Assembly: GCF_014205295.1 (NCBI RefSeq)
Contig: NZ_JACHNF010000001.1
Location: forward strand, 124,001-188,000
Length of the DNA: 64,000 bases
Direction: 5' to 3'
Source of the DNA: Kribbella solani
Lineage (GTDB): Bacteria > Actinomycetota > Actinomycetes > Propionibacteriales > Kribbellaceae
In this document: positions 31,726 through 54,132 of the stretch, piece after piece
How positions within the stretch are numbered: position 1 is the first letter of the stretch
How the letters are laid out: the number at the start of each line of letters is the position of its first letter
The notes under the pieces: model-generated
What the model was told of the DNA's origin: nothing
Database searches by the model: none
What the model saw: the letters and a program-made list of their open reading frames with translations, nothing else
Translations under genes and position numbers: made by a program

Positions 31726-33705
31726 ATGGCCACCGAGAAGGATCGACCGTGGGTAATGCGAACCTACGCGGGTCACTCTTCCGCGGCGGAGTCGAACGCG
31801 CTGTTCCGGCGGAACCTGGCCAAGGGGCAGACCGGACTGTCGGTCGCGTTCGACCTGCCGACCCAGACCGGGTACGACGCGGACCATCCGCTCGCCAAGG
31901 GCGAGGTCGGGAAGGTCGGCGTACCGGTCGCGCACCTGGGTGACGTCCGCGCGCTGTTCGACCAGATCCCGCTGGCGCGGATGAACACGTCGATGACGAT
32001 CAACGCGACCGCGATGTGGCTGCTCGCGCTCTACCAGGTCGCCGCCGAGGAGCAGGGCGCGCGCCCCGACGAGCTGACCGGTACGACGCAGAACGACATC
32101 GTCAAGGAGTACCTGTCCCGCGGCACGTACGCGTTCCCGCCGGAGGCGTCGCTGCGGCTCACCACGGACGTGATCGCGTACACGGTCGCGAACATGCCGA
32201 AGTGGAACCCGATCAACATCTGCAGCTACCACCTCCAGGAGGCGGGCGCGACACCCGTACAGGAGCTGGCGTTCGCGCTGTCGACGGCGATCGCCGTACT
32301 GGACCGGGTGCGCGACGCGGGTCAGGTACCGCCGGAGCGGTTCGGTGAAGTGGTGCAGCGGATCTCCTTCTTCGTGAACGCCGGCGTGCGGTTCATCGAG
32401 GAGACGTGCAAGATGCGCGCGTTCGTACGGCTGTGGGACGAGCTGACGCTGCAGCGGTACGGCGTGACCGACGCGAAAGCACGGCGGCTGCGGTACGGCG
32501 TGCAGGTCAACTCCCTCGGTCTGACCGAGGCGCAGCCGGAGAACAACGTGCAGCGGATCGTACTGGAGATGCTGGGCGTGACGCTGTCCAAGAACGCGCG
32601 CGCCCGGGCCGTACAACTGCCCGCCTGGAACGAGGCGCTCGGGCTGCCGCGGCCGTGGGACCAGCAGTGGTCGCTGCGGATGCAGCAGGTGCTGGCGTAC
32701 GAGTCCGATCTGCTGGAATACGACGACATCTTCGACGGATCGCACGTGATCGAGGCGAAGGTGTCCGCGCTGGTCGACGGGGCGCGCGAGGAGATCGACC
32801 GGGTGCAGGCGATGGGCGGTGCGGTCGCTGCTGTCGAGAGTGGTTATCTCAAGCAGGCGCTGGTCGCGTCGCATGCCGAGCGGCGGCAGCGGATCGAGTC
32901 GGGCGAGCAGGTCGTCGTCGGCGTGAACCGGTTCGAGAACACCGAACCGTCACCGCTGACTGCTGATCTCGATACAGCTATCCAGACCGTCGACCCCGCT
33001 GCCGAGTCCGCTGCACTGGAGGCGTTGCAGGAATGGCATACCAAACGAGATGCCGCCGCCGTTGACGCTGCCCTTGCCAAGTTGCAGGCGATCGCGAAGA
33101 CGGCCGGCAACCTGATGCCCGCGACCCTGGAGTGCGCGCGGGCCGGTGTGACGACGGGGGAGTGGGCGGGCGTACTGCGGGAGATGTACGGCGAGTACCG
33201 CGCGCCGACCGGCGTGTCCGGATCGGTCGGTATCGCCGCGGGTGGCGCTGAGCTCGCGGCTGTCCGCGCGAAGGTGAAGTCGACGTCGGACGAGCTGGGT
33301 GGACGGCTCCGGCTGCTGGTCGGCAAGCCCGGACTCGATGGTCACTCCAACGGTGCCGAGCAGGTCGCGGTACGCGCCCGAGACGTGGGTTTCGAGGTGG
33401 TATACCAAGGCATCCGCCTGACACCGGAGCAGATCGTCGCCGCCGCGGTCGCCGAGGACGTGCATTGCGTCGGGCTGTCGATCCTGTCCGGATCGCACAT
33501 GGAGCTCGTACCGCAGGTGGTCGACGGTCTTCGGACGGCCGGGCTGGAGGACGTACCGGTGGTCGTCGGCGGGATCGTCCCGGACGGCGACGCGAGGAAG
33601 CTGCTCGCCGCCGGCGTGGCCGCGGTATACACACCGAAGGACTACGACCTGACCGGCATGATGTCCGATGTGGTGGACGTGATCCGGCAGGCGAACAAGC
33701 TGTAG
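31726..33705 (+). CDS. meaA: Coenzyme B12-dependent mutase, MeaA / ethylmalonyl-CoA mutase type
   Basis: The 659-aa protein unites a TIM-barrel mutase domain and a C-terminal B12-binding domain. The start RTYAGHSSAAESNALFRRNL and FDLPTQTGYDADHPLA are the MeaA pattern, not the classic methylmalonyl-CoA mutase one (YAGFGTAE, FDMPTLMGYD). The cobalamin ligand motif DGHSNG is at 538-543, with the ligand His540. The family works in the ethylmalonyl-CoA pathway or related branched acyl-CoA metabolism; no crotonyl-CoA carboxylase gene is in the window. The GGTATACC array begins inside its 3' third (variant at 33035, exact at 33399, variant at 33623). Confidence 0.88.
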   Translation: MATEKDRPWVMRTYAGHSSAAESNALFRRNLAKGQTGLSVAFDLPTQTGYDADHPLAKGEVGKVGVPVAHLGDVRALFDQIPLARMNTSMTINATAMWLLALYQVAAEEQGARPDELTGTTQNDIVKEYLSRGTYAFPPEASLRLTTDVIAYTVANMPKWNPINICSYHLQEAGATPVQELAFALSTAIAVLDRVRDAGQVPPERFGEVVQRISFFVNAGVRFIEETCKMRAFVRLWDELTLQRYGVTDAKARRLRYGVQVNSLGLTEAQPENNVQRIVLEMLGVTLSKNARARAVQLPAWNEALGLPRPWDQQWSLRMQQVLAYESDLLEYDDIFDGSHVIEAKVSALVDGAREEIDRVQAMGGAVAAVESGYLKQALVASHAERRQRIESGEQVVVGVNRFENTEPSPLTADLDTAIQTVDPAAESAALEALQEWHTKRDAAAVDAALAKLQAIAKTAGNLMPATLECARAGVTTGEWAGVLREMYGEYRAPTGVSGSVGIAAGGAELAAVRAKVKSTSDELGGRLRLLVGKPGLDGHSNGAEQVAVRARDVGFEVVYQGIRLTPEQIVAAAVAEDVHCVGLSILSGSHMELVPQVVDGLRTAGLEDVPVVVGGIVPDGDARKLLAAGVAAVYTPKDYDLTGMMSDVVDVIRQANKL

Positions 33706-33717
33706 GCCGGGTCGGCG

Positions 33718-33757
33718 CTGTTCCACGGCGCTGTTCCACGGCGCTGATCCACGGGCG
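33718..33757. repeat. Three direct 13-base repeats before the aldo/keto reductase
   Basis: CTGTTCCACGGCG occurs at 33718 and 33731 and, with changes, at 33744. The repeats lie between the meaA stop and the start of the reductase gene. No hairpin is obvious. Confidence 0.55.
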
Positions 33758-33802
33758 TACGTCCCGCGGGCGCCGTTTCCTTCCGCGTGGTAGAAGGGTT
33801 GT

Positions 33803-34621
33803 ATGACTCAGCTGACGCGCACGTTGTCCAATGGCACGGAGCTCCCGCTGTTCGGGTTGGGTGTCTGGCAGGTCGACGACGGGGCCGAGTGCGAGCGTGC
33901 CGTCACCTGGGCGCTCGAGGCCGGATACCGCCTGATCGACACCGCGCAGGCGTACCAGAACGAGGCCAGCGTCGGCCGGGCGATCCGGGACAGTGGTATA
34001 CCACGCGAGGAAATCTTCCTGACCACCAAGTTCTACCCGGGTGGGAAGGACGCGCGGGTCGAGGCGGAGAAGAGCCTCGAGCGGCTCGGCACGCCATACC
34101 TCGACCTGTACCTGATCCACTGGCCGCAGGGCGGACCGACCTGGGCCTGGCCGGGGATGCAGGCGGCGGTCGAGGCCGGCCTGACCAAGGGCATCGGCAT
34201 CTCGAACTTCGGCGCGGACGAGATCCAGGAGCTTTCGAAGGTCGCGGAGATCCAGCCGGCCGTGAACCAGATCCAGTTCAGCCCGTTCGAGTACCGGCGT
34301 GCGCTCGTCGATGCCGGTGAAGCGGCCGGGATCGTCGCGCAGGCGTACAGCCCGCTCGGCACCGGGCGGCACCTCGGCGACCCGGTCGTGGCCAGGATCG
34401 CCGAGGCCACCGGCCACACGCCCGCGCAGGTGCTGATCCGCTGGGCGATGCAGAAGGGCCTTTCGGTGATCCCGAAGTCGACGCATCAGCCGCGGATCCT
34501 GGAGAACTACAACGTCTTCGACTTCGAGCTGGACGCCGCCGCGGTCGCCGATCTCGACGGGCTCGACACCACCGGTGAGACCGCGGACGCGTTGTCGCGC
34601 GGCAACAAGTGGTGGTCCTGA
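33803..34621 (+). CDS. Aldo/keto reductase
   Basis: The 272-aa NADPH-dependent reductase has the four catalytic residues of the family: Asp in LIDTAQAYQNE (about 47), Tyr in the same motif (about 52), Lys in TTKFYPGG (about 77) and His in LIHWPQ (about 110). The cofactor loop IPKST is near residue 230. Length is standard. The substrate is not predictable. One GGTATACC site (33995) falls in frame and encodes Gly-Ile-Pro with the rare codon ATA. Confidence 0.92.
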   Translation: MTQLTRTLSNGTELPLFGLGVWQVDDGAECERAVTWALEAGYRLIDTAQAYQNEASVGRAIRDSGIPREEIFLTTKFYPGGKDARVEAEKSLERLGTPYLDLYLIHWPQGGPTWAWPGMQAAVEAGLTKGIGISNFGADEIQELSKVAEIQPAVNQIQFSPFEYRRALVDAGEAAGIVAQAYSPLGTGRHLGDPVVARIAEATGHTPAQVLIRWAMQKGLSVIPKSTHQPRILENYNVFDFELDAAAVADLDGLDTTGETADALSRGNKWWS

Positions 34622-34622
34622 G

Positions 34623-34986: not shown

Positions 34987-36255
34987 CTACGGTAGCGGCT
35001 CCTGGTTTTCGCGGGCTTCGTGGCCGCCGTAGCGGAGGAGTTGCGGGGTCCAGAGGGCCAGGAGGGCGAGCAGGACGACGAGTAGGAGTCCGCTGACGAA
35101 CGTGGTGATGCTGACCCCGTAGTGCTCGGCGAAGGCGCCCAGCGCGAGGGATGCCAGCGGCATGATGCCGATCGCGAGTTCCTGGACACCGAGGGCGCGG
35201 CCGTGCAGCGACTCGTTCGTGGTCATCAGCAGCAGCGTGGTTTGCAGGACACCGAACGCGGCGCTCATCACGCCGATCGCGGTCATCAACACGAACGACG
35301 CGACCGGGCTGTACGACAGCCCGAAGGCGGCCCAGAGCATTCCCCAGATCGCGGTGCCGACGACGAACATGCCGCCCTTGAACCGGAAGTCGCCGAGCCA
35401 CGCGATCACCAGCGAGCCGGTCAAGCCGCCGACGCCGGTGCAGGTGAGCAACCAGCCAAGCCCGGCGGCGTCGAGGCCGAGCGACTCCTTGGCGAACACC
35501 GGCATGAACGACTGCGCGATCGGCCAGATCAACGTGTTCGCCGCCAGAGTGACCAACAGAACCGTCGACGCCAAGCGATTCCGCGCGATCTCACGCAGCC
35601 CGCTCGTCACCATCCGGACCGCCGATCCGGTGTGCCCGCCGACGACCCGCCCGTACTGACGCAGGGGCAGCAGCGTGACGAGCGAAATGGCATACCAAAA
35701 TGTGGAGACCCACAACGCGGCCGGCGCGCCGAGCCCGCTGATCATCAGACCGCCGAGCGCGGGACCGATCACCTGCGTCATGTTCAGCGCCATCGAGTTC
35801 AGTGCGTTGGCGTTGCTGATGTTCTGCCGGCCGACCAGATCCATCACCAGCGAGGCGCGCGCCGGTTGCGACGGCGATTGCGCCAGCCCGATCGCGAGAC
35901 CGCCGACGACGAGCACCCAGTACGAGGCCCGGCCGAGCGACGCCAGCGTCGCGACGGCACTGACCGCCACCAACGCCCACGAGGCCGCGATGATCAGCAG
36001 CCGAACCCGGTTGTGCCGGTCGGCGTACGCGCCCGCGAACGGTCCCAGCAGCAGCGGAGCAAGTCGTACCGCGGTGAACACGGCGACCAGGAAGTCGGAG
36101 TGCGTCGTCTCGTACGCCAGCCAGCCGAGTACCAGCGTCTGCGTCCAGACCCCGCCGAAGAAGAACAGATTCGACAACCAGAACAGGCGAAATGCCCGGT
36201 TGTCGCGCAACGAGCCCAGTGTCCTCCCGACGACCGTGGCAGTCCCGGTACTCAC
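34987..36255 (-). CDS. MFS transporter (antiporter-like)
   Basis: The 422-aa protein has about twelve membrane helices. After helix 2 it has the MFS loop GAYADRHNRVRLLI, the counterpart of GxxxDRxGRR. It resembles the enterobactin/macrolide efflux-like MFS group of actinobacteria. The start is GTG 36255, overlapping the TGA of the amidohydrolase gene by four bases, so the two form an operon and may share a substrate. A GGCATACC variant (35689-35696) lies inside the gene. Confidence 0.87.
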   Translation of the reverse strand: MSTGTATVVGRTLGSLRDNRAFRLFWLSNLFFFGGVWTQTLVLGWLAYETTHSDFLVAVFTAVRLAPLLLGPFAGAYADRHNRVRLLIIAASWALVAVSAVATLASLGRASYWVLVVGGLAIGLAQSPSQPARASLVMDLVGRQNISNANALNSMALNMTQVIGPALGGLMISGLGAPAALWVSTFWYAISLVTLLPLRQYGRVVGGHTGSAVRMVTSGLREIARNRLASTVLLVTLAANTLIWPIAQSFMPVFAKESLGLDAAGLGWLLTCTGVGGLTGSLVIAWLGDFRFKGGMFVVGTAIWGMLWAAFGLSYSPVASFVLMTAIGVMSAAFGVLQTTLLLMTTNESLHGRALGVQELAIGIMPLASLALGAFAEHYGVSITTFVSGLLLVVLLALLALWTPQLLRYGGHEARENQEPLP

Positions 36256-37445
36256 ACCTGGAGTACGCCGTCGCGCAAGACGACCTGTCCGCCGGCGATG
36301 ACGAATTCACGTCGCGGCGCGCGCACCAGCACGTCCGGGACGTTCTCCGCGTCGATCAGCACGATGTCGGCGCGGGCACCCGGCGTCAGGCCGTGCACCT
36401 CGCGGTGTACGAACGGCGCGGCGGCCGTGGTCGCGAGCTCGATCGCGTACGTGAGGTCGGCGTCGTCGCGCAGACCGTGCAGCCGGGCGAAACCGCGGGC
36501 GATCTGGAGGAGATCACCGTCACCGTACGGGGACCAGAGATCGCGGATGCCGTCCGTACCGAGTCCGATCGCGACCCCGGCGGTCCGCATCTCGCGCCAG
36601 GGCAGCGGTGCCGAGTTGACCGGCGCGACCGTCGTCCAGGAAACTCCGGCCTCACCCAATTGGTATACCATTTCCGACCGCCGCTGCGGCGACAGCTCAC
36701 CGAGCGCGAACCCGTGCGAGACGTTCACCCGCCCGGACAGCCCGCCGGCCACCGTGCGCTCGGCGATCAGCTCGTACTGGAACCCGCCGAGGTCACCGCG
36801 GTCGTGCAGATGGATGTCGATCCCGACGTTCCGCCGCACCGCGATCTCGAACAGCGCGTCCAGCTGCCCGACCGGGTCCCGGTCGATCGACGCCGGATCG
36901 AGGCCACCGATACTCGTCGCCCCTTCGGCCGCGGCCTGATCGAGCAGTTCCAGTACACCCGGCCGCCGGAGTACGCCATCCTGCGGGAACGCGACGATCT
37001 CCACTTCGACCGCACCGTTCAGAGCGGCGGCAGCCTCGTGCACGTTGGCGATTCCGCGCAGTCCGACACCGAGATCGACGTCCACATGCGTACGCGTCGC
37101 GGTCGTCCCGTGCCGCAGGAACTCGCGAAGCACTGCCTTCGTACCGTCCACGCTCGGGATCCCGTACTTGTCCCGCTCGGCCCGCTCATGCGCGATCCGC
37201 CCCTGGGTCGTCGGCTCACCGCCGTACGAAACCCACGGCTGCCCCCACCAGCTCTTGTCCACATGCGCATGCGCGTTGATGAACCCCGGCAAGGCGAGCA
37301 ACCCACGCCCGTCGACCCGCTCCACCTCCGGCGGCACGACAGCACTCCCCGCTGCCGCCACGTCGGTGATCACCCCATCCACAACCACCAGATCAACCAA
37401 CGCCCCACCCGAACCCCGAACCCCACCAACCACCAAGCTACGCAT
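36252..37445 (-). CDS. Amidohydrolase, cytosine deaminase-like
   Basis: The 397-aa metal-dependent hydrolase has the first metal motif HAHVDKSWWGQPW near residue 62, a second His pair in DIHLHDRGD, a third His in VNVSHGFALG, and the final Asp in IGLGTDGIRD near residue 297. These match the CodA-like branch that deaminates cyclic amidines or hydrolyses N-alkyl groups. The substrate is unknown. ATG 37445 is preceded at a few bases by the operator-like TTTGGTATACCATT. It is coupled to the MFS gene downstream. Confidence 0.85.
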   Translation of the reverse strand: MRSLVVGGVRGSGGALVDLVVVDGVITDVAAAGSAVVPPEVERVDGRGLLALPGFINAHAHVDKSWWGQPWVSYGGEPTTQGRIAHERAERDKYGIPSVDGTKAVLREFLRHGTTATRTHVDVDLGVGLRGIANVHEAAAALNGAVEVEIVAFPQDGVLRRPGVLELLDQAAAEGATSIGGLDPASIDRDPVGQLDALFEIAVRRNVGIDIHLHDRGDLGGFQYELIAERTVAGGLSGRVNVSHGFALGELSPQRRSEMVYQLGEAGVSWTTVAPVNSAPLPWREMRTAGVAIGLGTDGIRDLWSPYGDGDLLQIARGFARLHGLRDDADLTYAIELATTAAAPFVHREVHGLTPGARADIVLIDAENVPDVLVRAPRREFVIAGGQVVLRDGVLQV

Positions 37446-37454: not shown

Positions 37455-37462
37455 GGTATACC
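37455..37462. promoter_or_regulatory. GGTATACC operator-like site at the amidohydrolase start
   Basis: Read on the minus strand the site is TTTGGTATACCATTG and ends about 9 bases before ATG 37445, so a bound protein would block the ribosome site or the promoter. The neighbouring GntR gene has the same element at its own start (38387), which makes that regulator the best candidate ligand. A further copy is at 37499-37506. Confidence 0.6.
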
Positions 37463-37507
37463 AAACCTGACCAAAGCCCACCCCTCAGGCGCAAATCCGG
37501 TATACCG

Positions 37508-37732: not shown

Positions 37733-38371
37733 TCAGGGCATCCCGCGGCTGTCGCGGAACAGTGACTGGGACTGCGCGAGATGTTCACTGGCCATACGTT
37801 CGGCCAGATCAGCATCCCGGTTTGCGATCGCCGCGTAGAGCTCCATATGCTGCTCCGCGACCGCCTTCAGATCGTCGTGCTGAGTGAGCAACCACCGCAT
37901 CCTGCTCCGCAGCGGCCGTTCGATCTCGATCAGCAGCTCGTTCGACGCAAGCTCGGTGACGATCTCGTGAAAGTCCGCCGCCTTCCGCCGCGCCACCACC
38001 GCATCCCCGGTCCGCGCCGCCGCCAGCTGGCCATCGAGCGTACGCCGCAACCGATCAAGCCCCTCCCGCGTACGCCGCTCAGCAGCCAACCGAAAGGTCA
38101 ACGGCTCGAACGCCGCACGCACTTCGGTAAGATCGGCAATGTCGGAGTCGGTAAAGGTCCGGACCACGGCCCACGACCGCGGCCGCAGCGTGATCAGCCC
38201 TTCGGCAACGAGTACCTTGAGGGCTTCCCGGACCGGCACCCGGCTGACCTCCAGCCCCGCCGCGAGCTCCCGCTCGACCAACCGCTCCCCGGGCCGCCGC
38301 ACCCCGTCGAGAATCTCGTCCCGCAACCGCCGCGCCACCCGCTCGGCCTCAGACTCCCGCACGTCACTCAT
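37733..38371 (-). CDS. GntR-family regulator, FCD (FadR) subfamily
   Basis: The 212-aa protein has an N-terminal winged helix (RLRDEILDGVRRPGERLVERELAAGL, with EVSRVPVREALKVL as recognition region, residues 16-54). The all-helical FCD effector domain follows from about residue 75, with the metal ligand pattern DFHEIV near 133 and QHMELYAAI near 174. ATG 38371 is preceded by TTTGGTATACCAAC 12 bases upstream, fitting autoregulation. It probably controls the amidohydrolase-MFS operon, whose start carries the same palindrome. Confidence 0.9.
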   Translation of the reverse strand: MSDVRESEAERVARRLRDEILDGVRRPGERLVERELAAGLEVSRVPVREALKVLVAEGLITLRPRSWAVVRTFTDSDIADLTEVRAAFEPLTFRLAAERRTREGLDRLRRTLDGQLAAARTGDAVVARRKAADFHEIVTELASNELLIEIERPLRSRMRWLLTQHDDLKAVAEQHMELYAAIANRDADLAERMASEHLAQSQSLFRDSRGMP

Positions 38372-38383
38372 CCACGCTCCAGG

Positions 38384-38397
38384 TTTGGTATACCAAC
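38384..38397. promoter_or_regulatory. TTTGGTATACCAAC operator-like site of the GntR gene
   Basis: This is the most complete copy of the TTTGGTATACCAAA pattern in an intergenic place, 12 bases before the GntR start. The shape (TGGT-N2-ACCA) is that expected for FCD-type GntR proteins and resembles the UxuR/ExuR consensus as I remember it. Confidence 0.65.
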
Positions 38398-38495
38398 CAT
38401 CCCAAGCATGCCGCACCACCCCCAGCACCCCAAACCCGTTGTCCACAGGCCCAACCAACCTGTTCTGCCTTCGGGCGCTGAGCGGTTCTGGCGGG

Positions 38496-39146: not shown

Positions 39147-40312
39147 CCCGGCCCCCCGTCCCCATCCACCCGATCGGCCGAACCATCCGGCCCAACGGCA
39201 GCCGCAGGCCCCGCCAGCCCGCCTGCACCCGCGGGACCGGCCGGCCCGACGGAAGCTGCGGGACCCGCCGGGCCGCCTGCACCCGCGGGGCTGCCTGCAC
39301 CCGCGGGGCTGCCTGGACCCGCGGGACCGCCTGGACCTGCTGGCTTCGGTGGGGGAGCGAGTTTCTGGACCGGGACCGTCAGGCTTACCTCGGTGCCGCC
39401 CGCCGGCCGGGGTTCGATGTCGAGCGCCGCGCGAATCAGCAGGGCCCGCTCACGCATGCCGCGGATCCCGGCACCTTCATGCGCCAGCCCGATCCCGCGT
39501 CCATCGTCCGCGATCCGCAAAACGACAGCCCCGGCGTACGCCGCCAGCGACAACTCGATCCGCCGCGCCCCGGCGTGCCGCGCAACATTCGTCAGGCTCT
39601 CCTGCGCGACGCGGTAAAGCACCAGCTCGGTCTGCCCATCCAGCTCCGGCAATCCGGCGTCGAACCGCCGATCGATCACCAGCCCGGTGTGATCCGACAC
39701 CTCGGTCGCCAGCGCCGTCAGCGCACTGATCAGGCCAAGATCCTCCAGTACGCCGGGCCGCAGCCGATGCGCGAGCCGCCGTACCTCATCCAAGCTCGCC
39801 CGCGTCGTCTCCTGCGCCTGCGCCAACTCACCGCGCAACGCAGGATCAGGCGAACGATCGGCCGCCCGCTTCAGATCCATCAGTACCGCGGTCAGGCTCT
39901 GCCCCACCTCGTCATGCAACTCCCGCGCGATCCGCCGCCGCTCGGACTCCTGCGCGGACAACGCCCGCGCCGCGCTCGTCGCGCGCTCGCGTTCCAGCCG
40001 GTCGAGCATGTCGTTGAAGGCATGCAGCAGATCCGGTATACCACCGTGCCCGCTGACCGGAAGCCGTTGCCCGGGACGCAGTACGTCGACGGTCGACATC
40101 CGCCGGTTCAGCCGGGCCAGCGGCGCGAGACCGACCCGCAGGAGAGCGGCGTTGGCGACCAGCATGACCACCAGGCCGCCGATCAGTACGGACGCCTCGG
40201 TGAACAGCACCGGCACCGACACGGTGACCGGCGCCCACAGCAGCAACGCGGTCGCCCCGCCGAGTACAAGCGCGTTCAGGCCGAAGATCCGCCAGAACAA
40301 CGACACCAGCAT
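39137..40312 (-). CDS. Sensor histidine kinase (HisKA_3 type) with collagen-like tail
   Basis: The 391-residue kinase has two N-terminal membrane helices, a short extracytoplasmic stretch and a HAMP-like linker (about residues 70-130). The phosphorylation motif RRIARELHDEVGQSL and an ATPase domain with ADDGRGIGL follow. The last 60 or so residues are a Gly-Pro-Ala low-complexity tail with the collagen-like Gly-x-y rhythm. ATG 40312 with GGAAAGGA before it is chosen; longer starts lack a ribosome site. A GGTATACC site at 40035 encodes Gly-Ile-Pro with ATA. Confidence 0.87.
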   Translation of the reverse strand: MLVSLFWRIFGLNALVLGGATALLLWAPVTVSVPVLFTEASVLIGGLVVMLVANAALLRVGLAPLARLNRRMSTVDVLRPGQRLPVSGHGGIPDLLHAFNDMLDRLERERATSAARALSAQESERRRIARELHDEVGQSLTAVLMDLKRAADRSPDPALRGELAQAQETTRASLDEVRRLAHRLRPGVLEDLGLISALTALATEVSDHTGLVIDRRFDAGLPELDGQTELVLYRVAQESLTNVARHAGARRIELSLAAYAGAVVLRIADDGRGIGLAHEGAGIRGMRERALLIRAALDIEPRPAGGTEVSLTVPVQKLAPPPKPAGPGGPAGPGSPAGAGSPAGAGGPAGPAASVGPAGPAGAGGLAGPAAAVGPDGSADRVDGDGGPGCG

Positions 40313-40623
40313 TCCTTTCCTCAGCCCTTCAGTCCTACCAAACGCCACCATCGTGGCCGTTACCTTCGCCACCAACGTGGACGTGCTCCGTGGACGTGTT
40401 CCTTCGCCACCATCGTGCGCCCATCGTCTCCGGTATACCTCAGCGGCCAGCCTGACCCTGCCGTCCACCGCTGTCGATCGGGCCTGACACCCATCCGCCG
40501 GGCTAGGCGTACGCCGCGTACCTCACCCGCCGCGGTACAGCCCGCGCCAGACGTGCCGGAGGTATACCAAGATGGGGGTCAGTCCCGATAGGAAACCGCT
40601 GACCCAGCGGCCATGGTGTGGTC
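40313..40623. other. Divergent intergenic region with two GGTATACC sites
   Basis: This 311-base gap separates the histidine kinase gene (leftward) from the first DksA-like gene (rightward). It holds GGTATACC at 40432-40439 and 40561-40568, about 120 bases from one start and 56 from the other. I see no further gene in it. Both operons could be controlled from here. Confidence 0.6.
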
Positions 40624-40959: not shown

Positions 40960-40986
40960 GCGCCGCCGCGCCAAGTGAGGAGCAGC

Positions 40987-41511
40987 GTGAAAAGCCAGAC
41001 CAGGAAGTCGCGCAACGGTGGTATACCACGAGACGAACTAGCCGGCCTCAGAGCAAGCCTGCTGGAACAACGCACCTTCCGCCGCGAACAACTAGCCCAA
41101 ATCCACCAACGCCCCAAACCAAACCCCACCACCCCCCACGCCTCTCAACCCTCCCCACCAACCACGAATCGGCCCTCCCCGCCGGCCACCACATCCGCTG
41201 CTTCCGACGACCGTGCAACACCGAACGCCGCGGCCTTCGGTACCCACAACCAATCGGTGCCAGGAGCTTCGGTCACCGGTATACCAACCGTCACACCCGC
41301 TGCGGGTCGGGCTGAGGTCGAGGATTGCCTGGTGATCGCGGCCCGTGACGTACTGGCCGACGTCGAGGCAGCTCTGGACCGCATGGAAACCGGGCACTAC
41401 GGCCAGTGCCGTGAATGCCGAGGCGGCATCGCATTGTCGCGGCTGCGGATCTGCCCGGAAACGCTGTACTGCGGCGACTGCCACCGAGCCCGCGAAACGG
41501 CCACCCAATGA
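40987..41511 (+). CDS. DksA/TraR-type zinc-finger protein with disordered insert (second of two)
   Basis: The 174-aa protein shares the C-terminal finger with its neighbour (CRECRGGIALSRLRICPETLYC with CGDC, near residues 140-165), but an insert of about 75 residues rich in Pro, Ser and Thr separates it from the N-terminal helix. Two GGTATACC copies (41020 and 41278) fall in frame inside the gene, both as Gly-Ile-Pro with ATA; the second lies in the insert. GTG 40987 is preceded by GAGGAGCA. It probably arose by duplication of the upstream gene. Confidence 0.75.
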   Translation: MKSQTRKSRNGGIPRDELAGLRASLLEQRTFRREQLAQIHQRPKPNPTTPHASQPSPPTTNRPSPPATTSAASDDRATPNAAAFGTHNQSVPGASVTGIPTVTPAAGRAEVEDCLVIAARDVLADVEAALDRMETGHYGQCRECRGGIALSRLRICPETLYCGDCHRARETATQ

Positions 41512-41865
41512 AGCCGGCGAGGCACACCTCCAGCCCCGACACATCACAACCCCCGACCCCACAGCCCACCACCGGCCGCTCATGGTGGCGCACCCGGCCA
41601 CCAACCACCCACCCAAAACAACCAAGCACCCCACCACCCAACCCTCACCCGAACAGTTCGAGCAGTTCGTCGACTGACGTTCGCTCGGCGCGTTCGAGTG
41701 CCTGGTCTGTCCATGGTTGGGCGGAGGCGTGGTGCATCGGGCCGGTGGGTGGCGGGTTGGATGGAGTTGGGCATCGTGGCGGCTGACATGTGGGTGGAGT
41801 GGTGGCGTGGTTCGGCGGGTGGTGAGCGGGCTGGGTGGTGGCGTGTGCTGCCGATGGGAGACCGG
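41512..41865. other. 354-base region without a recognised gene
   Basis: The first half is C/A-rich (CCACC-type) and the second half G/T-rich. Open frames here are not gene-like and have no ribosome site until GGGAGA before 41866. No hairpin or palindrome stands out. Confidence 0.5.
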
Positions 41866-43457: not shown

Positions 43458-45335
43458 GTGGAAAGTTTTGAATTCGGTCCAGGCTCGGTCCAGGTCGCCG
43501 ATGACGGCGCGGTCGCGCAGGTACTGCACCCGGACGGCCGGCGGGTACTGCTGGACGAGGGCGTGGTGCACGACAGCCTGCACGCGTGGGGCAAGGGTTT
43601 CGTCATCACCGATCACGGTGCGTATCGGTTCGACACTCCGGCGTTCACGCGCTGGCGGAGCAGCGGGATCGACCTGATGTACCGGTTCGGCGACCTGGAA
43701 TTGCGCGTGGGCCGCCGCTTCGGTGAGCGGTGGACGGAGACGTACGAGCTGCGCAACACCGCCGATGCGCCGGTGGAGATCGGTTCGATCGCGATCAGTA
43801 CGCCATACCGCGACGTGTACGCGTCTAGTCGTGAGAGCCTCACCGGATCAGTACATGCGCATGTCTGGACGGGCGGCGCGGACGCCTGGGTCTGGGCGGT
43901 GCCGATGGACGGCAGCGGTCCGGGTCTGGGCCTGCAGCTCACGGAGGGTGAGCTCTGGGCGTATTCGATCGAGTCCCGCGAGCCGGGCACCAGCAGCAAC
44001 ATCCGCGGACACATCTACCTGCATGTCACCGACCAGGCCCGCGCCCCGCACGCGATGGGCGGGCAGCCGGCGATCACTCTCGAACCGGGCGGCACGTACC
44101 GCTGGACCTGGCAGCTCGCCTGGTATACCAAACTGCCTGACTTCCACGCCGATCGCCAACCGTTGATTGAGGCAACAAAACTGGCGACCGAGGTCGGCGA
44201 AACGCTTCGGCTCACCGGTGTCACCCCGCGCGAACTCAGCAGTGACCAACCCGGCATCCAGCATGTCGAAGCCACCGACGGTACGCGGACCGCCCGCGTC
44301 GCCGTCCTGTTCCACGAGCCGCTGCGCGTGATCTCGGAACGCCGCGCGCGATTCATCCTTGATCATCAGCGGCGGCCCGAGCTGGACGGGAGCCGGAAGT
44401 ACGCCTTCGTGCCGTACGACAACGACAGCGGTTTGACTGTACTTTCCAGCGCGTGGCGCGACTGGTCGGACGCCCGCGAGCGGATCGGGATGGCGATCCT
44501 CCTGCAGGAGGTACGTGATCGTGGTTGGGGCGACCGTGCCGAACTGGACGATGCGTTGGCGGGGTACGAGGAGTTCGTCCGTGATCATCTGCTCGACGAC
44601 GCGGGCACGATCCAGGACGACAGCATCCATCAGAACGCCGTACGTCTCTACAACTTCCCGTGGTTCGCGCGGTTCCTGCTCGGGCAGGGTGATCGGAGTG
44701 GCGCGACCCGCATTCTCGATCGGTACTACGAGCTCGGCGGTGATCACTTCCTGGCGTTCGATCTCGGTCCGCTGCTGAGTGAGCTTGGTCTGCACAATCA
44801 TCTCGTGCGGCATGCCAAAACATTCATCGGGTACGGGGACGAGTTGCCGCCGCATGAAGTGAATTACGAGCAATCTATGGTGGCGCCGTTGCTGGAGCTG
44901 CTGGTTTCGGCATACCAAATCGCGCCGGATGAGATCGACGGCGCCGAGCTAAGCCGGCGGTTGCCGTGGTTGACCGCGTTCGCGGCGGACCAGCCCGACG
45001 TACGCCTTCGGCATGTCGCGCTTCGGCACTGGGACGGGTACTGGTTCGGCCGGTTGCGGTTGTGGGGTGATGTTTTCCCGCACTACTGGTCCGCGTTGAG
45101 TGCGGTGGTGTACGCCGCCTGGCCGCGTGAGCTGGTCGCACCGGAGTTGGCGGACTGGCTTGATGCGGCCGAGGACGCGATCCTGCGGGCGAACCTGGTC
45201 AGCTTCGCGGCGGACGGTTCGGCGACGTGCGCTTTCGTCTACCCGAGTTGCGTGAACGGGCAGCCGGCACACGTCGCCGACCCGCTGGCGAACGACCAGG
45301 ACTGGGCCCTCGTCTACGCCCTCCGCCGCCTCTGA
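43458..45335 (+). CDS. Putative six-hairpin glycosidase-like protein
   Basis: The 625-aa protein has an N-terminal beta-sandwich half (to about 270), with many aromatic and Thr residues, and a C-terminal helical half with repeated WFARFLLGQGD and HWDGYWFGRL-type stretches, as in (alpha/alpha)6 glycosidases and glycogen-debranching relatives. No signal peptide is present. The catalytic acids cannot be placed with confidence. GTG 43458 begins the homology-like part. It carries GGTATACC at 44122 (Trp-Tyr-Thr) and GGCATACC at 44909. Confidence 0.6.
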   Translation: MESFEFGPGSVQVADDGAVAQVLHPDGRRVLLDEGVVHDSLHAWGKGFVITDHGAYRFDTPAFTRWRSSGIDLMYRFGDLELRVGRRFGERWTETYELRNTADAPVEIGSIAISTPYRDVYASSRESLTGSVHAHVWTGGADAWVWAVPMDGSGPGLGLQLTEGELWAYSIESREPGTSSNIRGHIYLHVTDQARAPHAMGGQPAITLEPGGTYRWTWQLAWYTKLPDFHADRQPLIEATKLATEVGETLRLTGVTPRELSSDQPGIQHVEATDGTRTARVAVLFHEPLRVISERRARFILDHQRRPELDGSRKYAFVPYDNDSGLTVLSSAWRDWSDARERIGMAILLQEVRDRGWGDRAELDDALAGYEEFVRDHLLDDAGTIQDDSIHQNAVRLYNFPWFARFLLGQGDRSGATRILDRYYELGGDHFLAFDLGPLLSELGLHNHLVRHAKTFIGYGDELPPHEVNYEQSMVAPLLELLVSAYQIAPDEIDGAELSRRLPWLTAFAADQPDVRLRHVALRHWDGYWFGRLRLWGDVFPHYWSALSAVVYAAWPRELVAPELADWLDAAEDAILRANLVSFAADGSATCAFVYPSCVNGQPAHVADPLANDQDWALVYALRRL

Positions 45336-45447: not shown

Positions 45448-46155
45448 TTAGGTCAGGGTTGGTAGTAGGTCGCGCAGGTGGTTCATCAGGTGGTCGTGGA
45501 CGCTTGTTCCGTACGAGATGCGGGTCGCGCCGGCTGCCGCGAGTTCGGCCGGGGATGGGCCGCCGACTTTGGCGTGCCCGTTGATGGGTCCGCCAACGGC
45601 CTCGGCCACCTGCTTGATTTGGTATACCGGAGCAAGTATCGGGTACACGCAGTCGGCACCGGCCCGCCGGTACTCGCGGCCGCGGGTGATTGCCGCCGCG
45701 ACCGGGTCCTCGACCCGCCGGACGAACGTGTCCACCCGGGCGTTGATCACCAGCTCGGCGCCCGCCGCGGCGCGTACCTCGGCGAGGTAGTCGGCCTGCT
45801 TCGCGACGTCGACGAGTTCACCGCCGACCGAGTCCTCCAGGTTGCAGCCGACCGCGCCGGTCGCCAGCAACCGCTCGACAAACTCCTTCGGCGCCAGCCC
45901 GTACCCGGCCTCCAAGTCGGCCGTCACTGGTATACCAACCGCGCGGACGATTTGCGCGACGGCGGCGAACATCTGGTCCGGTGGAGTCAGTTGCCCGTCG
46001 TCGTACCCGAGCACCCGGGCGACCGCTCCGCTGCTGGTGGCGACAGCGGGGAAGCCGGCCTCGGCGATCAGGCGCGCGCTGACCGGATCCCAGGCGTTCG
46101 GGAGGACCAGAGGAGTACCGCCGTGGTGCAGTGCCCTGAAGAGTTCCGCGGTCAT
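45448..46155 (-). CDS. Isocitrate lyase / PEP mutase family protein
   Basis: The 235-aa TIM-barrel protein carries the family loop VTADLEAGYG near residue 78, GCNLEDSVGG near 103 and a second metal/substrate segment INARVDTFVR near 135. The loop lacks the KKCGH motif of true isocitrate lyase, so a carboxyphosphoenolpyruvate or oxaloacetate-type substrate is more likely. It follows the AhpD-like gene after 9 bases. Two GGTATACC copies lie inside (45621 as Val-Tyr-Gln, 45929 as Gly-Ile-Pro with ATA). Confidence 0.85.
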   Translation of the reverse strand: MTAELFRALHHGGTPLVLPNAWDPVSARLIAEAGFPAVATSSGAVARVLGYDDGQLTPPDQMFAAVAQIVRAVGIPVTADLEAGYGLAPKEFVERLLATGAVGCNLEDSVGGELVDVAKQADYLAEVRAAAGAELVINARVDTFVRRVEDPVAAAITRGREYRRAGADCVYPILAPVYQIKQVAEAVGGPINGHAKVGGPSPAELAAAGATRISYGTSVHDHLMNHLRDLLPTLT

Positions 46156-49434: not shown

Positions 49435-50015
49435 TCATTCGGTCACGCCGCGGCTGAGTAGCACCAGGGCGATGAAGGTTTGGTATACCACCAGCGGGTC
49501 ATCATTGCGCAAGGCAACGACCTTCTCCTCCCGGCGTTCGACGCCGCGCAGCCGGCAGGCCAGTTCGGCCTACGCCCCGTTGCGGAACCGGACCGTCAGT
49601 TCGGCCGGGAGGGCGATACTCGGCGGCCGGATGCCGGTCAGCCGGACCTCCGCGATCGCGCGCGGGTTGTACGTGTGGTGCAGCACCGACGACGTCGAGC
49701 CGGCCGAACCGTGGTACGACACGAAGAACACCGCGTCGTACGAGGCGTCGAGGCCCTGCATCATGTACATCGGCTTGTGCTTGCCGGACAGGTAACTCGC
49801 GCGGCCGTGCAGTTCGTCCGGGCGCAGGTTCTGCATCGTCGAGTGCGAGTCGTTGACCAGGAACTCGGTCCCGCCAGCGCGCCGTCGATCGCCGCGTTCA
49901 CCTCGGCCTGCAGCTGGCCGCGGTAGTACTCGTACTCGACGCTCGGCCCGCGACACTGACTCCAGTCGACGACGCCCGCCGTACCTTCCATGTCGGTGGA
50001 CAAGAAGACCTTCAT
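49435..50015 (-). pseudogene. Broken M55 D-aminopeptidase (DppA-like)
   Basis: The start MKVFLSTDMEGTAGVVDW is the M55 signature and metal site. Near 49873 a one-base loss shifts the frame; the next frame continues TEFLVNDSHSTMQNL and VFFVSYHG. About 80 residues after VRLTG are missing, then the C-terminus resumes (LPAELTVRFRNGA), is cut by a TAG at 49570, and still reads on to DPLVVYQTF and LLSRGVTE before TGA 49435. Three separate lesions make it a clear pseudogene. ATG 50015 directly follows the gudD stop, so it was the last gene of that operon. GGTATACC at 49482 encodes Val-Tyr. Confidence 0.85.
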
Positions 50016-51500
50016 TCACCGCACCATACAAGGCCGCTTCGGGTCGAACTCCCAGTCCTCGATCAGGTACCGCATCGCGATCGCGTCGTTCCGCGCGCCG
50101 AGCCCGTGCTCCAGATAGAGCTCGTGCGCCGCGGCCAGCGCGTCCCGGTCCAGCTCGACGCCGAGCCCGGGCCGATCCGGTACGGCGATCGCGCCGTCAG
50201 TGATCCGGAGTGGATTCCTGGTCAGCGCCTGCCCGTCCTGCCAGATCCAGTGCGTGTCGAGCGCCGTGATCTCGCCGGGCGCGGCCGCGCCGACGTGCGT
50301 GAACATCGCCAGCGAGATGTCGAAGTGGTTGTTCGAGTGCGAACCCCAGGTCAGCCCGAAGTCGTGACACAACTGGGCGACCCGGACCGAACCGGCCATC
50401 GTCCAGAAGTGCGGATCGGCGAGCGGGATGTCGACCGCGTTCGACCGGATCGCGTGCGCCAGCTCGCGCCAGTCGGTCGCGATCATGTTCGTCGCCGTCC
50501 GCAGGCCGGTATACCGTTTGAACTCGGCCATCGTCTCGCGGCCGGAGAACCCGGGCTCGGCACCACACGGATCCTCGACGTACGCGAGTACGTCGTCCAG
50601 GCCCGAGCAGACCGCGACGGCTTCGCGGACCAGCCAGGCGCCGTTCGGATCGACGGTGATCCGCGCCGACGGGAACCGCTCGTGCAACGCCCGGACCGTG
50701 TCGATCTCGACGTGCGGATCGAAGACGCCGCCCTTGAGCTTGAAATCCGTGAACCCGTACCGGTCCTGCGCCGCCTCGGCCAGCGCGACAACCGCCTCGG
50801 CCGTCAGCGCCGGTTTCCGCCTGAGCCGCGTCCATCGGTCGTCGTCGCGCGACGACCTGGCGTCGCCGGCATCCAGCACGTACGGCAGGTCGGTGCGTGC
50901 CGGATCGCCCACATAGAAGAGATAACCGAGGACGGGAACCGCGGCACGTTGTTGCCCTTCGCCCAGCAACTCGGCGACTGGTATACCAAAATGCCGGCCG
51001 AGCAGATCGAGCATCGCCGACTCGAGCCCGGTGACGGCATGCACCGTCGTCCGTAGGTCGAACGTCTGCAGACCACGCCCACCGGCGTCCCGACCGGCGA
51101 ACCTGGTGGCGATGGATCGGAGCAGACTTCGGTACCGGCTGAGTGGTTGACCGACGAGGAACGGCGCGGCGTCACGGATGGTGGCCGCGATCTTCTCGCC
51201 GCCGGGCACCTCGCCGAGACCGGTGTTCCCCGCGCTGTCGGTCATGATCACGACGTTCCGCGTGAAGAACGGACCATGCGCGCCGCTCAGATTGAGCAGC
51301 ATGCTGTCGTACCCGGCAACCGGCACGACCTCCACAGCCTCGACGGTCGGAACAGCCCCTGCAGTCCCGGCAGTCCCGGCGACTCCGGCAGCTCCGGCGA
51401 CCCCGGCGACCCCGGCAGCCCCGGCGGCTCCGACGGCCCCGGCGCGGGCGGTGGACGCGGCGGCCCCGGTGCGGGCGGCGGGTCCGGTGGGCGGGGTCAT
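50016..51500 (-). CDS. gudD: Glucarate dehydratase with Ala/Gly-rich N-terminal extension
   Basis: The enolase-superfamily enzyme dehydrates D-glucarate to 5-dehydro-4-deoxy-D-glucarate. Motifs match Gud[12 protein letters not shown] near the N-terminus, [12 protein letters not shown] (catalytic Lys), VDPNGAW and EDPCGAEPG metal region, and [13 protein letters not shown] (catalytic His). Before the core lie about 50 residues of Ala-Gly-Val repeats (51353-51480 in DNA), absent from standard GudD. ATG 51500 overlaps the kdgD stop by four bases. GGTATACC sites at 50508 and 50980 lie inside; the latter encodes Gly-Ile-Pro with ATA. Confidence 0.93.
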
Positions 51501-52411
51501 TGGAGCTTTCCGATCAGGGTGGCCAGTTCGGTTCGTTCGTCGGGAGTGAGGTCCTGCAGTGGTGGCCGGACCGGTCCGGCGTCGGGTCCGATCGCGGTCA
51601 CCCCCGCCTTCACGATCGAAACGGCATACCCTTTCACCCGGTCGCGAAGGTCCAGGTACGGCAGCACGAACTCGTTCAACTTTTGGTATACCACCGCCCG
51701 GTCCTGCGCCAGCACGTCCGCGTAGAAGCCGAGCGCGAACTCCGGCACGAAATTGAAGATCGCCGACGAGTACGTGCTGTACCCGAGCTGCAGCAGCGGG
51801 AGCGCGAACGTCTCCGCGGTCGGCAGCCCGCCGATGTACGTGAGCCGGTCGCCGACCCGGGCGTACGTCCGGGTCATCATCTCGATGTTGCCGACGCCGT
51901 CCTTGAGGCAGACCAGGTTCGGGTTCCGGTCGGCCACCTCGGCGACCGTGACGTCGGTCAGGATCGCGTTCGCGCGGCTGTACACGGTCACGCCGAGGCT
52001 CGTGCTTCGGCATACCGCCGAGATGTGCTCGGCCAGCCCACGTTGCCCGGCCTCGGTCAGATACGGCGGCAGCAGCAGGACTCCGTCCGCGCCGGCGGCC
52101 TCGGCCGCTTGCGCACCGGCGATCGCCGACGCGGTCCCGCCGGTGGCCGGCGCGATCACCGGGACCCGCCCGTTCACCTCGCCGACGGCCGCGCGGACCA
52201 CGGCGCCGATCTCGTCCGGGGTGAGCGAGAACCCCTCGCCGGTACCGCCCGCGGCGAACAGCCCGGCCACGTCGTACTGGCTGAGCCAGGACAAGTGCTC
52301 GCGGTACCCGGCCTCGTTGAAGCTGAGATCCGGGTGAAAATGCGTGACGGGGAACGAAAGCAGCCCGGTCTTGAGGTGCGCGGCCAGCTCGGTGGGGGAG
52401 TAGTTGGTCAC
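51497..52411 (-). CDS. kdgD: 5-dehydro-4-deoxyglucarate dehydratase
   Basis: The 304-aa DHDPS-superfamily enzyme converts 5-dehydro-4-deoxyglucarate to 2,5-dioxopentanoate, water and CO2. The Schiff-base Lys is in [13 protein letters not shown] near residue 169 and the substrate loop [10 protein letters not shown] near 55. Adjacent gudD makes its substrate, which fixes the role. The next enzyme, 2,5-dioxopentanoate dehydrogenase, is not in the window. GTG 52411 is the start. GGTATACC at 51685 and variants at 51623 and 52009 lie inside. Confidence 0.94.
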
Positions 52412-52462: not shown

Positions 52463-52463
52463 T

Positions 52464-53342
52464 CTAGTGATGCTCTGGGAGCATCGTGAGCACCCGCTGC
52501 AGGACCGGACTGGTCGAGTCCCGGCGCCAGATCGCGTGCAGCTCGACCGGTTCGCCGGCGCCGTCCAGTTCGCAGTACGTGACGCCGTCGACGCCGAAGC
52601 CGCGCGCCGACGCCGGCACCAGGGCGACGCCGCGCCCGGCCGCGACGAGCAGGATCACCGTCAGGATCTGCTGCACCCGCTGCTCGATCCGTGGATGCGC
52701 GTCGGCCAGGAACCGGACGGTCAGCTCGTGGAAGTACCGGGCCTGGGTCGGTGCGTAGCTGATCACCGGTTCGTCCGCGAAGTCGGCGGCTCGCAGTGGC
52801 CGGTCCAGGGTGCCGAGCCGATGGTTGCCGGCGACAACGGCACACAGCGGCTCTTGGTATACCACCCGGGAGTCGAGGGCGGCGGTGTCGAACGGCGGGC
52901 GGCCGAGGCCGAGATCCAGCTCGCCACGCAGCAGTCCGTCGATCTGCGCCGGGGTGACCCGCTCGTGCAGGATCACGTCGACGTCGGGCAACTCGACGGC
53001 CAGCCGCTGGAGCAACGGCCCGAGGGTACGGATCGCCGACGTCGCGGTGAAGCCGAGTCGCAGGGTTCCCGCGGCGCCCTGGTCCACTCGGCGGGCGAGG
53101 TCGCCGGCGGTCTCGACCAGCGCGAGCAGCCGGCGCGCTTCGGTGAGGAACGCCCGCCCGGCCTCGGTCAGCTCGACCTTGCGGTTGTCGCGGTCCAGCA
53201 GCCGCGCGCCGACGGCCCGCTCCAGCTTCTGCACCTGGCGGCTCAGTGGTGGTTGGGTCATGTTCAGCCGTTCCGCGGCGCGGCCGAAGTGCAGTTCCTC
53301 GGCGACCGCGACGAACGCGCTCAACTGATCGAGCGAAAACAT
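52464..53342 (-). CDS. LysR-family regulator of the glucarate operon
   Basis: The 292-aa protein has an N-terminal winged helix ([27 protein letters not shown]) and a C-terminal two-lobe effector domain. It is encoded on the same strand just before kdgD-gudD, so it likely senses glucarate or a related aldarate and activates that operon. GGTATACC at 52856 encodes Val-Tyr-Gln. Confidence 0.92.
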
Positions 53343-53457
53343 GATTCCCGAAAGGTATCACTCGATGCCCAATCAGGACCGAACGGGCATCATCGCTCCT
53401 CCCAGCGCCTGCCTGTCCAGCGCGTCACGCCCGGCAACTGCCCCAGCGATTGAGGGG

Positions 53458-54132
53458 TCAGTTGCTGGTGAGGCGGTGGCGGGTGTTCGAGAGGTGGACG
53501 CGGGTTGCGGATCGGGCGGTCTCGGGGTCGGAGCGGGCGATGGCGGCGTGGATGTTCTCGTGTTCGTGGACGACGCGGGTGAGGTGGTCCGGATCGTCCA
53601 TTTGGTATACCGGGTTCAGCCGGGTCCGGGGCAGCATGATCATCATCGGGCCCAGGTCGGTGATCAGGTCAGTGTAGAAACGGTTGCCTGAGGCAACGGC
53701 GACTTTGAGGTGGAAGGTGAAGTCGGCTGCCACCGAACGCGCCGGGTCGGCGCCGACGCGGCGGAAGTCGTCGAGTGCCCGTTCGATCCCCTTCAGCTGG
53801 TGGGCGGTCCGGCGGCTCGCGGCCAGGGCGGCCGCTTCGCTTTCCACGCCGATCCGGAAGTCCATCAGCTCCAGTACGTCCCGATGCGAGCGCACTTCGC
53901 GCAGTCCGGGCGTACGCTCCGGGAGTTCGAGGACGTACGAGCCACGGCCCTGGAATGTCTCGACCAGGCCGGCGGCCTGCAATTGGGATACCGCTTCGCG
54001 GACGACGGTCCGGCTGACCCCGAACTCCTCGACCAGGCTGAACTCCGTCGGCAGCTTCGCGCCAGGCTCGATCGCGCCGCTGAGGATTCGTTGCTTCAGC
54101 TCCTCGACAATTTGGTATGCCAAACCGCTCAT
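53458..54132 (-). CDS. GntR-family regulator, FCD subfamily (aldarate operon)
   Basis: The 224-aa regulator has the winged helix (LKQRILSGAIEPGAKLPTE, then FGVSRTVVREAVSQLQAAG) and an FCD domain from about residue 85, with DFTFHLKVAVASGN and HEHENIHAAIA carrying metal-binding His. ATG 54132 overlaps the stop of the dehydratase gene by four bases. The best operator candidate is TTGTCCGACAA upstream of that gene. A GGTATGCC copy falls at its own start (54114-54121), and GGTATACC at 53604 lies inside. Confidence 0.91.
   Translation of the reverse strand: MSGLAYQIVEELKQRILSGAIEPGAKLPTEFSLVEEFGVSRTVVREAVSQLQAAGLVETFQGRGSYVLELPERTPGLREVRSHRDVLELMDFRIGVESEAAALAASRRTAHQLKGIERALDDFRRVGADPARSVAADFTFHLKVAVASGNRFYTDLITDLGPMMIMLPRTRLNPVYQMDDPDHLTRVVHEHENIHAAIARSDPETARSATRVHLSNTRHRLTSN

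Follow-up and report, generated by a model that had tools for sequence, protein, structure and literature searches.

A clustered, mostly intragenic palindrome associated with an FCD-type GntR regulator gene in Kribbella

Operators that lie within coding sequence, such as lac O2 in lacZ, gal OI and the cre sites of CcpA, strengthen repression by looping or by blocking elongation; to our knowledge, such auxiliary operators number one or a few per operon. HIP1 of cyanobacteria is a highly repeated 8-base palindrome that is found inside genes genome-wide, and matS and parS, the sites of MatP and ParB, are palindromic protein sites that occur as arrays across a defined segment of DNA. Here we describe an 8-base palindrome, GGTATACC, in the soil bacterium Kribbella solani (assembly GCF_014205295.1). 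The stretch of DNA that was analysed, referred to as the window, comprises the 64,000 nucleotides at positions 124,001-188,000 of the 7.81-Mb contig NZ_JACHNF010000001.1 (genome 7.85 Mb), and within it the palindrome forms a dense field around R1, a gene encoding an FCD-type GntR regulator. Unlike lac O2, gal OI and cre, the field has 21 sites in 20 kb, and there are arrays in several gene clusters; unlike HIP1, the 93 copies in 7.85 Mb are clustered and tied to a regulator gene; and unlike matS and parS, they do not occupy one terminus or origin domain, the clusters being located at 0.16, 3.04, 3.7-4.0, 6.7 and 7.45 Mb. A literature search found no report of such a field, and the number and conservation of the intragenic sites exceed those of any case known to us.

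Operators of the FadR subfamily of GntR regulators have the form TKGT/ACMA, with a 2-nt spacing between GT and AC reported for UxuR, PrpR and MdcY (PMC4494728). The Kribbella locus is similar to the UxuR-type operators in having a GT-2nt-AC palindrome, a gene for an FCD regulator with sites on both sides of it, and a sugar-acid setting; it differs in that operators were sought there upstream of genes, whereas here dozens are intragenic, in several clusters, and many are conserved (PMC4494728). Escherichia coli NanR, an FCD-GntR repressor, reads (GGTATA)3 direct repeats, with cooperativity mediated by an N-terminal extension (PMC8012715). The likeness lies in an FCD-GntR regulator combined with a GGTATA motif, and the difference lies in the arrangement, with three direct repeats in the case of NanR and inverted palindromes that are 44 bp to kilobases apart in Kribbella (PMC8012715). 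The NanR chain 6on4 matched R1 residues 77-200, the effector-domain part of the protein.

The reading that we favour, with moderate confidence, is that the palindromes constitute a dense field of likely R1 operators, mostly intragenic, which would act as roadblocks or loop anchors and restrain the genes that carry them. The preliminary description of this DNA had proposed, among other ideas, a very dense operator field, and this proposal survives, since the motif agrees with the operator form of the FadR subfamily and follows a single FCD-GntR gene at the locus. As in that subfamily, an FCD-GntR gene with an adjacent site is present, namely R1, whereas the sites of the field are not mainly upstream of genes, as exact copies in other genera and in relatives that lack the field largely are. 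The arrangement would work as an auxiliary-operator system, yet most of its sites do not have the upstream position of an ordinary GntR operator.

The 21 exact copies counted previously between positions 33,399 and 53,611, with none in the rest of the window, were confirmed; 100 dinucleotide shuffles of the window gave a mean of 0.14 copies and a maximum of two. A T before the core (15 of 21 copies), an A after it (also 15 of 21), the extended form TGGTATACCA (12 of 21) and spacing extremes of 44 bp and 3.55 kb were likewise borne out. The GC content, which had been assumed to be about 69%, was measured as 68.0%, and the at least eight one-base variants reported for the same stretch became seven strictly inside it, with three more just beyond (33,035, 53,985 and 54,114). 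The excess of GGTATACC in the field was the highest among all 256 eight-base palindromes (21 compared to approximately 0.1 expected), and it again ranked first of the 256 across 864 kb of this genome, much of which had been selected because it bore sites (78 compared to 2.3). The consensus of these 78 copies was tTGGTATACCAa, with T at -1 in 68% of half-sites, and the core, TGGT-AT-ACCA, satisfies the TKGT/ACMA boxes with 2-3 nt between GT and AC.

Genome-wide, there were 93 copies of GGTATACC, compared to six for a reversed-pattern control, and 42 copies of TGGTATACCA, compared to none. The motif was not equally frequent throughout the genome: apart from the studied field at 0.16 Mb, further clusters occupied about 3.71-3.74, 3.78-3.82 and 3.97-4.02 Mb, and minor groups were found at 3.036, 6.702 and 7.45 Mb. 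The description of the array as bounded therefore held within the window and failed genome-wide, where there are several separate clusters. A parS- or matS-like array marking a chromosome macrodomain had also been suggested, and bounded clusters of one palindrome, together with the location of the 3.71-4.02 Mb set roughly half-way round the contig, are consistent with this suggestion. The latter clusters first pointed to a terminus domain, an idea that was dropped because these sites are patchy, with two exact copies across seven 20-kb pieces of the nearly empty 3.83-3.97 Mb region, and because the studied field is at 0.16 Mb. Furthermore, the 20 kb at either end of the contig contained no sites, and the motif is rare in most of the genus; in 31 of 38 Kribbella genomes, a set that includes the present one (G000), there were six or fewer copies of the half-site TTGGTATACC on both strands. 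We regard the macrodomain reading as extremely improbable.

Most copies were located within genes. In the 3.65-4.15 Mb region 41 of the 42 copies fell in predicted genes, the coding share of that DNA being 85%, and 58 of 60 copies were intragenic across 16 loci (three from this genome and 13 of the 20 fetched from K. rubisoli, G007, and K. kalugense, G440). In the window, the gene caller placed 12 of the 21 copies within genes and four more were in open frames with zinc-finger-like, MreB/Hsp70-like or histidine-kinase content; the copies at 37,455, 37,499, 38,387, 40,561 and 49,482 appeared to be intergenic. All three reading frames were used by the intragenic sites (26, 9 and 27 sites).

The occurrence of the motif was associated with that of R1. 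Orthologues of R1 with at least 75% identity were present in 17 of the 38 genus genomes, this one counted. All six genomes with at least 23 half-sites TTGGTATACC on both strands had R1, and among the 21 genomes without R1, 20 had five or fewer; the other one, G010, had 14. The R1 locus was aligned in 20 of the 37 other genomes. Relatives were mapped onto this genome, so that sites in DNA missing here were uncounted, and the tree was built from the R1 locus alone. The R1 start was preceded, at a distance of no more than about 40 bp, by the motif or a variant differing at one base, both here and in every one of the 14 aligned relatives that have R1. This site (38,387) was exact in this genome, G002, K. 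rubisoli, K. jiaozuonensis (G011), G016 and K. kalugense and differed at one position in the remaining nine aligned carriers. On the other side of R1, before the amidohydrolase gene, an exact copy (the counterpart of 37,455, reading AATGGTATACCA) was present in all 14 aligned carriers, nine of which are field-less; these nine also hold a few intragenic variants.

A similar association was seen outside the genus. Among 11 loci from other genera that encode R1 homologues (55-64% identity), 6 had GGTATACC within 10 kb, compared to none of 11 for the reversed control; for more distant FCD regulators the motif and the control were each found at 7 of 44 loci. The six loci held eight sites, six of them 35-109 bp before a likely start and two not upstream, and four of the six upstream sites were also overlapped by another long open frame. 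Microlunatus parietis, for example, has TTTTGGTATACCAAA 66 bp upstream of its R1 homologue, and Nocardioides albidus has two such upstream sites. As judged from these positions, the arrangement beside the R1 homologues of other genera comes close to a classical operator pattern. In K. steppae (L164) R1 is located elsewhere on the chromosome and is surrounded by three intergenic copies of GGTATACC, an arrangement suggesting that regulator and target move together as a module.

The field was present in a subset of the relatives. Over 40 kb of the R1 locus there were eight exact sites in G002, ten in K. rubisoli, eight in K. jiaozuonensis, eight in K. kalugense, four in G016 and three in G010. 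Nine relatives that are equally similar to the window (0.83-0.85) had one exact site each and some one-base variants (G013, G014, K. pratensis G017, G012, G019, strain VKM Ac-2569 G005, K. sindirgiensis G443, K. soli G023 and G439), and there were no exact sites in G001, G018, G003, G434 and G015 (similarity 0.79-0.82). Between three and five of the six site-bearing relatives had exact sites at each of 44,122, 50,508, 50,980, 51,685 and 52,856, where other relatives read, for example, GGTACGAC or GGAACACG. At a second locus, 3.98-4.02 Mb, which was aligned in 11 relatives and carries a GH36 family gene, a solute-binding protein gene and a multicopper oxidase gene, there were 9 to 16 sites in G002, K. 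rubisoli, K. jiaozuonensis and K. kalugense and four in G010; G016 had none, and neither had the five field-less relatives that were fetched. Motif spacings were identical in two segments of the K. jiaozuonensis assembly (C1:2231289-2392158 and C5:28809-189617), probably a duplicated assembly segment, and the counts for this species are therefore inflated.

Most genes of the stretch were found in all or nearly all of the 20 aligned relatives, and a query covering 43.3-54.2 kb matched all 38 genus genomes, in pieces; the stretch is therefore not a foreign island. By this sequence comparison, the sites arose inside inherited genes that are common to the genus.

Retention of exact intragenic sites was compared, over 16 ordered species pairs that were chosen by hand and are not independent, with that of control 8-mers from the same genes, matched for codon phase and wobble composition. 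Sites of K. jiaozuonensis were retained in K. rubisoli at 16 of 17 positions (5.6 expected) and, in the reverse direction, at 16 of 19 (5.7 expected). K. rubisoli retained 14 of the 18 sites of K. kalugense (3.6 expected) and 11 of the 21 of this genome (1.9 expected), K. kalugense retained 12 of 19 from this genome (2.0 expected), and G002 retained 13 of 19 from K. rubisoli (5.5 expected). Lack of positional conservation beyond chance, which would have spoken against a functional array, was thus not observed; intragenic sites are conserved in coding sequence between field-bearing species, with the exception of G016. Gene conversion or spread of a cassette was rejected, because the surroundings of shared sites were only averagely similar (five species pairs).

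A sponge, in which the intragenic sites would titrate R1 and so set the threshold of its few genuine promoter operators while leaving the genes that carry them unaffected, accords with their location in gene bodies, use of all three frames, varied spacing and lack of helical phasing. A sponge needs no particular place, yet the sites cluster in few loci and their exact positions are conserved, and we consider this explanation unlikely.

At 10 of 35 positions the peptide encoded by the site was also present in a site-less relative; most gains therefore altered amino acids, and gain by synonymous change only was rejected. The final control for peptide matches was itself matched for reading frame and for DNA distance to the relatives. 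With it, matches were found at 5 of 18 positions in K. rubisoli (8.2 expected), 8 of 19 in K. kalugense (9.7 expected), 5 of 20 in this genome (7.6 expected) and 5 of 18 in K. jiaozuonensis (8.3 expected). An excess amino-acid cost, which was large with a control for frame only, was small once the control windows were equally diverged.

One relative, G010, has lost R1. The positions equivalent to 37,398 and 42,902 were joined by 118 bp, R1 being gone, and the best R1-like match, at 41%, was elsewhere in the genome; GntR2 (the second FCD-GntR gene of the window), LysR and MocR were still full-length. G010 retained 6 of 19 sites of its sister K. rubisoli (7.6 expected), 4 of 14 of G002 (4.3 expected) and 7 of 18 of K. 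jiaozuonensis (5.6 expected). A sister test drew on 22 positions at which two or more of four genomes (this genome, K. kalugense, G002 and K. jiaozuonensis) carry a site. Two of these positions (38,387 and 4,005,398) were dropped for gaps; of the remaining 20, K. rubisoli kept 17 and G010 six (Fisher p = 0.001). The field thus appears to have decayed in the sole examined genome that lost R1, and G010 provides the best evidence, from sequence comparison, that R1 maintains the field. The copies in G010 comprised about ten in the two known field regions, with five in the R1 region of contig C5 and five at C2:307-339 kb, and 18 that were scattered. Three further pairs of GGTATACC in G010 (C2:1214070, C3:957948 and C3:1127689) all had a 63-bp spacing and are perhaps copies of a repeated element.

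These results also bear on a sequence bias that has no regulatory meaning, whether a HIP1-like palindrome, motif-rich donor DNA, a restriction or uptake signal, or directed mutation. Intragenic sites in three frames, and peptide changes about as common as in equally diverged DNA, would be in keeping with such a bias. It is opposed by the presence of parts of 43.3-54.2 kb throughout the genus, by the average flanks of shared sites and by the near-neutral retention in the genome without R1. Moreover, when 396 genomes of the phylum were scanned with GGTATACC, none had a HIP1-like density, the highest other count being 76 with a control of 62, and a motif-rich donor or HIP1-like genome was rejected. 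A bias of this kind is very unlikely to account for the field. In the same scan, many genomes of family f21 had GGTATACC above the reversed control, for example 23 compared to 3, 22 compared to 5 and 31 compared to 8.

Several observations weigh against the interpretation of the field as R1 operators that restrain the genes around them. In nine aligned relatives, R1 and its flanking sites occur without a field, and G016, which has R1, keeps 2 of 19 sites of K. kalugense (3.1 expected) and 2 of 18 of K. jiaozuonensis (3.9 expected); R1 is therefore at best necessary and not sufficient. The case for R1 loss rests on one genome, which kept 6 of the 19 sites of K. kalugense, above the 3.8 expected, and which had 34 exact copies genome-wide compared to nine for the control; of the two positions dropped from the sister test, 4,005,398 was exact in G010 and unaligned in K. 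rubisoli. Extra-strong selection could not be demonstrated, because changed peptides were little commoner than in equally diverged DNA. Most field sites are away from promoters, unlike normal GntR operators, and no helical phasing was detected over 41 inter-site distances. Pfam and NCBIfam searches of approximately 80 proteins in or near the clusters gave no evident common pathway for the distant clusters; the proteins were mixed catabolic enzymes, transporters and encapsulins, and the idea of one shared pathway was rejected.

The incomplete prediction of the field by R1 raises the possibility that another or an additional protein reads it, such as GntR2, a paralogous FCD regulator or a partner confined to field-bearing lineages, R1 being just one classical regulator that uses the same operator. 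In addition to the nine field-less carriers, the few sites of G016 at the R1 locus and the lack of any at the second locus accord with such a reader, and there are 26 FCD domains in the genome. GntR2 was rejected, however, as G010, with its low retention, has the gene at full length and as it is present in the field-less G013, K. sindirgiensis, G019, G001 and G018; furthermore, no FCD domain is encoded closer than 25 kb to either of the clusters at 3.71-3.74 and 3.97-4.02 Mb. Overall, an additional reader is possible but rather doubtful. A difference in R1 itself was also rejected as the cause of field compared to no field: three alignment columns of R1 separated the two groups, none of them in the helix-turn-helix region.

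On the favoured interpretation, an R1 dimer would bind tTGGTATACCAa, and the role of the site in the wider family would be that of a classical operator near gene starts, that of R1 included. In some Kribbella lineages, point substitution would then have created copies within catabolic genes close by, as well as in several clusters far away, and selection would have retained them; this order of gains and losses is inferred. Bound sites would block elongation or anchor loops, lowering transcription, and a small effector would release R1. This effector may be a sugar acid, a guess prompted by the glucarate/galactarate-type enzymes encoded at the locus.

The coordinates of R1, of the 21 exact copies and of three variants are listed in Table 1.

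Table 1. R1, exact palindromes and selected variants in the window. Positions are those of the window; relatives are given by genome label, and "only here" means this genome only among those aligned.
Feature	Position	Strand	Location	Remarks
R1	37736..38371	-	FCD-type GntR regulator, 212 aa	Predicted palindrome reader; Pfam GntR + FCD above cut-off, matches scored on longer open reading frame (ORF) 37736-38728
GGTATACC	33399..33406		In methylmalonyl-CoA mutase family gene (31756-33705)	Only here
GGTATACC	33995..34002		In aldo/keto reductase gene (33803-34621)	Only here
GGTATACC	36662..36669		In amidohydrolase gene (36252-37373)	Also in G002, G440
GGTATACC	37455..37462		Upstream of amidohydrolase/MFS genes	Predicted promoter operator; coding or intergenic according to amidohydrolase start chosen (37,481 or 37,373)
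GGTATACC	37499..37506		Intergenic	44 bp from 37455 site
GGTATACC	38387..38394		About 16 bp before R1 start	Context TTTGGTATACCAA; predicted autoregulatory operator
GGTATACC	40035..40042		In histidine kinase gene (39137-40312)
GGTATACC	40432..40439		Upstream open frame of histidine kinase (39137-40522, minus)	Coding status set by start codon
GGTATACC	40561..40568		Just before DksA/TraR-like zinc-finger ORF (40603-40959, plus)
GGTATACC	41020..41027		In second zinc-finger-like ORF (40960-41511, plus)
GGTATACC	41278..41285		In second zinc-finger-like ORF (40960-41511, plus)
GGTATACC	41985..41992		In MreB/Hsp70-like ORF (41512-42747, plus)	MreB_Mbl match
GGTATACC	44122..44129		In 625-aa gene (43458-45335, plus)	Same place in G002, G007, G010, G011, G440
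GGTATACC	45621..45628		In PEP-mutase family gene (45448-46155)	Also in G007
GGTATACC	45929..45936		In PEP-mutase family gene (45448-46155)	Only here
GGTATACC	49482..49489		Intergenic, 128 bp before DAO-family gene (48413-49354, minus)	Only here
GGTATACC	50508..50515		In glucarate dehydratase-like gene (50016-51335)	Same place in G002, G007, G011, G440
GGTATACC	50980..50987		In glucarate dehydratase-like gene	Same place in G007, G010, G011, G016, G440
GGTATACC	51685..51692		In kdgD, 5-dehydro-4-deoxyglucarate dehydratase (51497-52411)	Same place in G002, G007, G011, G016, G440
GGTATACC	52856..52863		In LysR-type regulator gene (52464-53342)	Same place in G002, G007, G011
GGTATACC	53604..53611		In GntR2, second FCD-GntR gene (53458-54168)	Only here
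GGCATACC variant	35689..35696		In MFS transporter gene	Same place in 9 aligned relatives, with and without field
GGCATACC variant	44909..44916		In 625-aa gene	Same place in 9 aligned relatives, with and without field
GGTATGCC variant	54114..54121		5' end of GntR2	Same place in G002, G007, G010, G011, G016, G440

The kdgD product scored above the cut-off of TIGR03249, and the glucarate dehydratase-like product scored 768 bits against TIGR03247, under its cut-off of 829; no Pfam or NCBIfam match was obtained for the 625-aa gene. Both zinc-finger ORFs were named by eye, with C-x2-C motifs cited for ORF 40603-40959. G002, K. rubisoli, G010 and K. jiaozuonensis have an exact GntR2 site of their own, at the counterpart of 53799. 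The locus also encodes a talarate/galactarate dehydratase, LysR and MocR, so that the stretch, previously described as having two GntR proteins, holds three GntR-type genes (R1, MocR and GntR2).

Beside R1, the 38496-42747 module encodes a response regulator, a histidine kinase, the two zinc-finger (DksA-like) ORFs and the MreB/Hsp70-like ORF. Its response regulator, kinase and first zinc-finger ORF were found at 80-94% identity in the field-less G013, G014, G019 and G439, in which the Hsp70-like ORF was only 45-66% alike. The module was not found at the locus in six other site-bearing relatives, save for a weak 31% regulator match in G016. Just past the field there are two adjacent transposase genes (56907-58139 and 58227-59471), both with Pfam rve, HTH_38 and HTH_23 matches. 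At 3788257-3793283 of the main contig (L005/L006), a 742-aa ORF is located between two type 2A encapsulin shell genes that are SrpI-like with a cNMP-binding domain, and four palindromes are spread across the three genes. In K. rubisoli (L128:7870-9162) and K. kalugense (L137:7756-9111), five and six motif copies or variants were found within 1.4 kb in two genes, which in K. rubisoli are NamZ (exo-beta-N-acetylmuramidase) and a GNAT family gene; this pair had no counterpart in the fetched part of the present genome.

Intragenic binding of transcription factors is often dismissed as noise or taken as a single auxiliary operator. At the Kribbella loci, arrays of intragenic sites are shared between species position by position, and G010, which lost the likely regulator, retains about as many as neutrality predicts when compared with three of four reference species. 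The natural variants, with a field, with R1 and no field, or with R1 lost, make the role of intragenic binding directly testable. As a bolder and tentative possibility, an ordinary local GntR repressor may now serve to coat gene bodies, forming a kind of "bacterial heterochromatin" that is sequence-specific and responds to a ligand. If so, operators would be written into coding sequences at many loci, and whole catabolic regions would be silenced and released as units.

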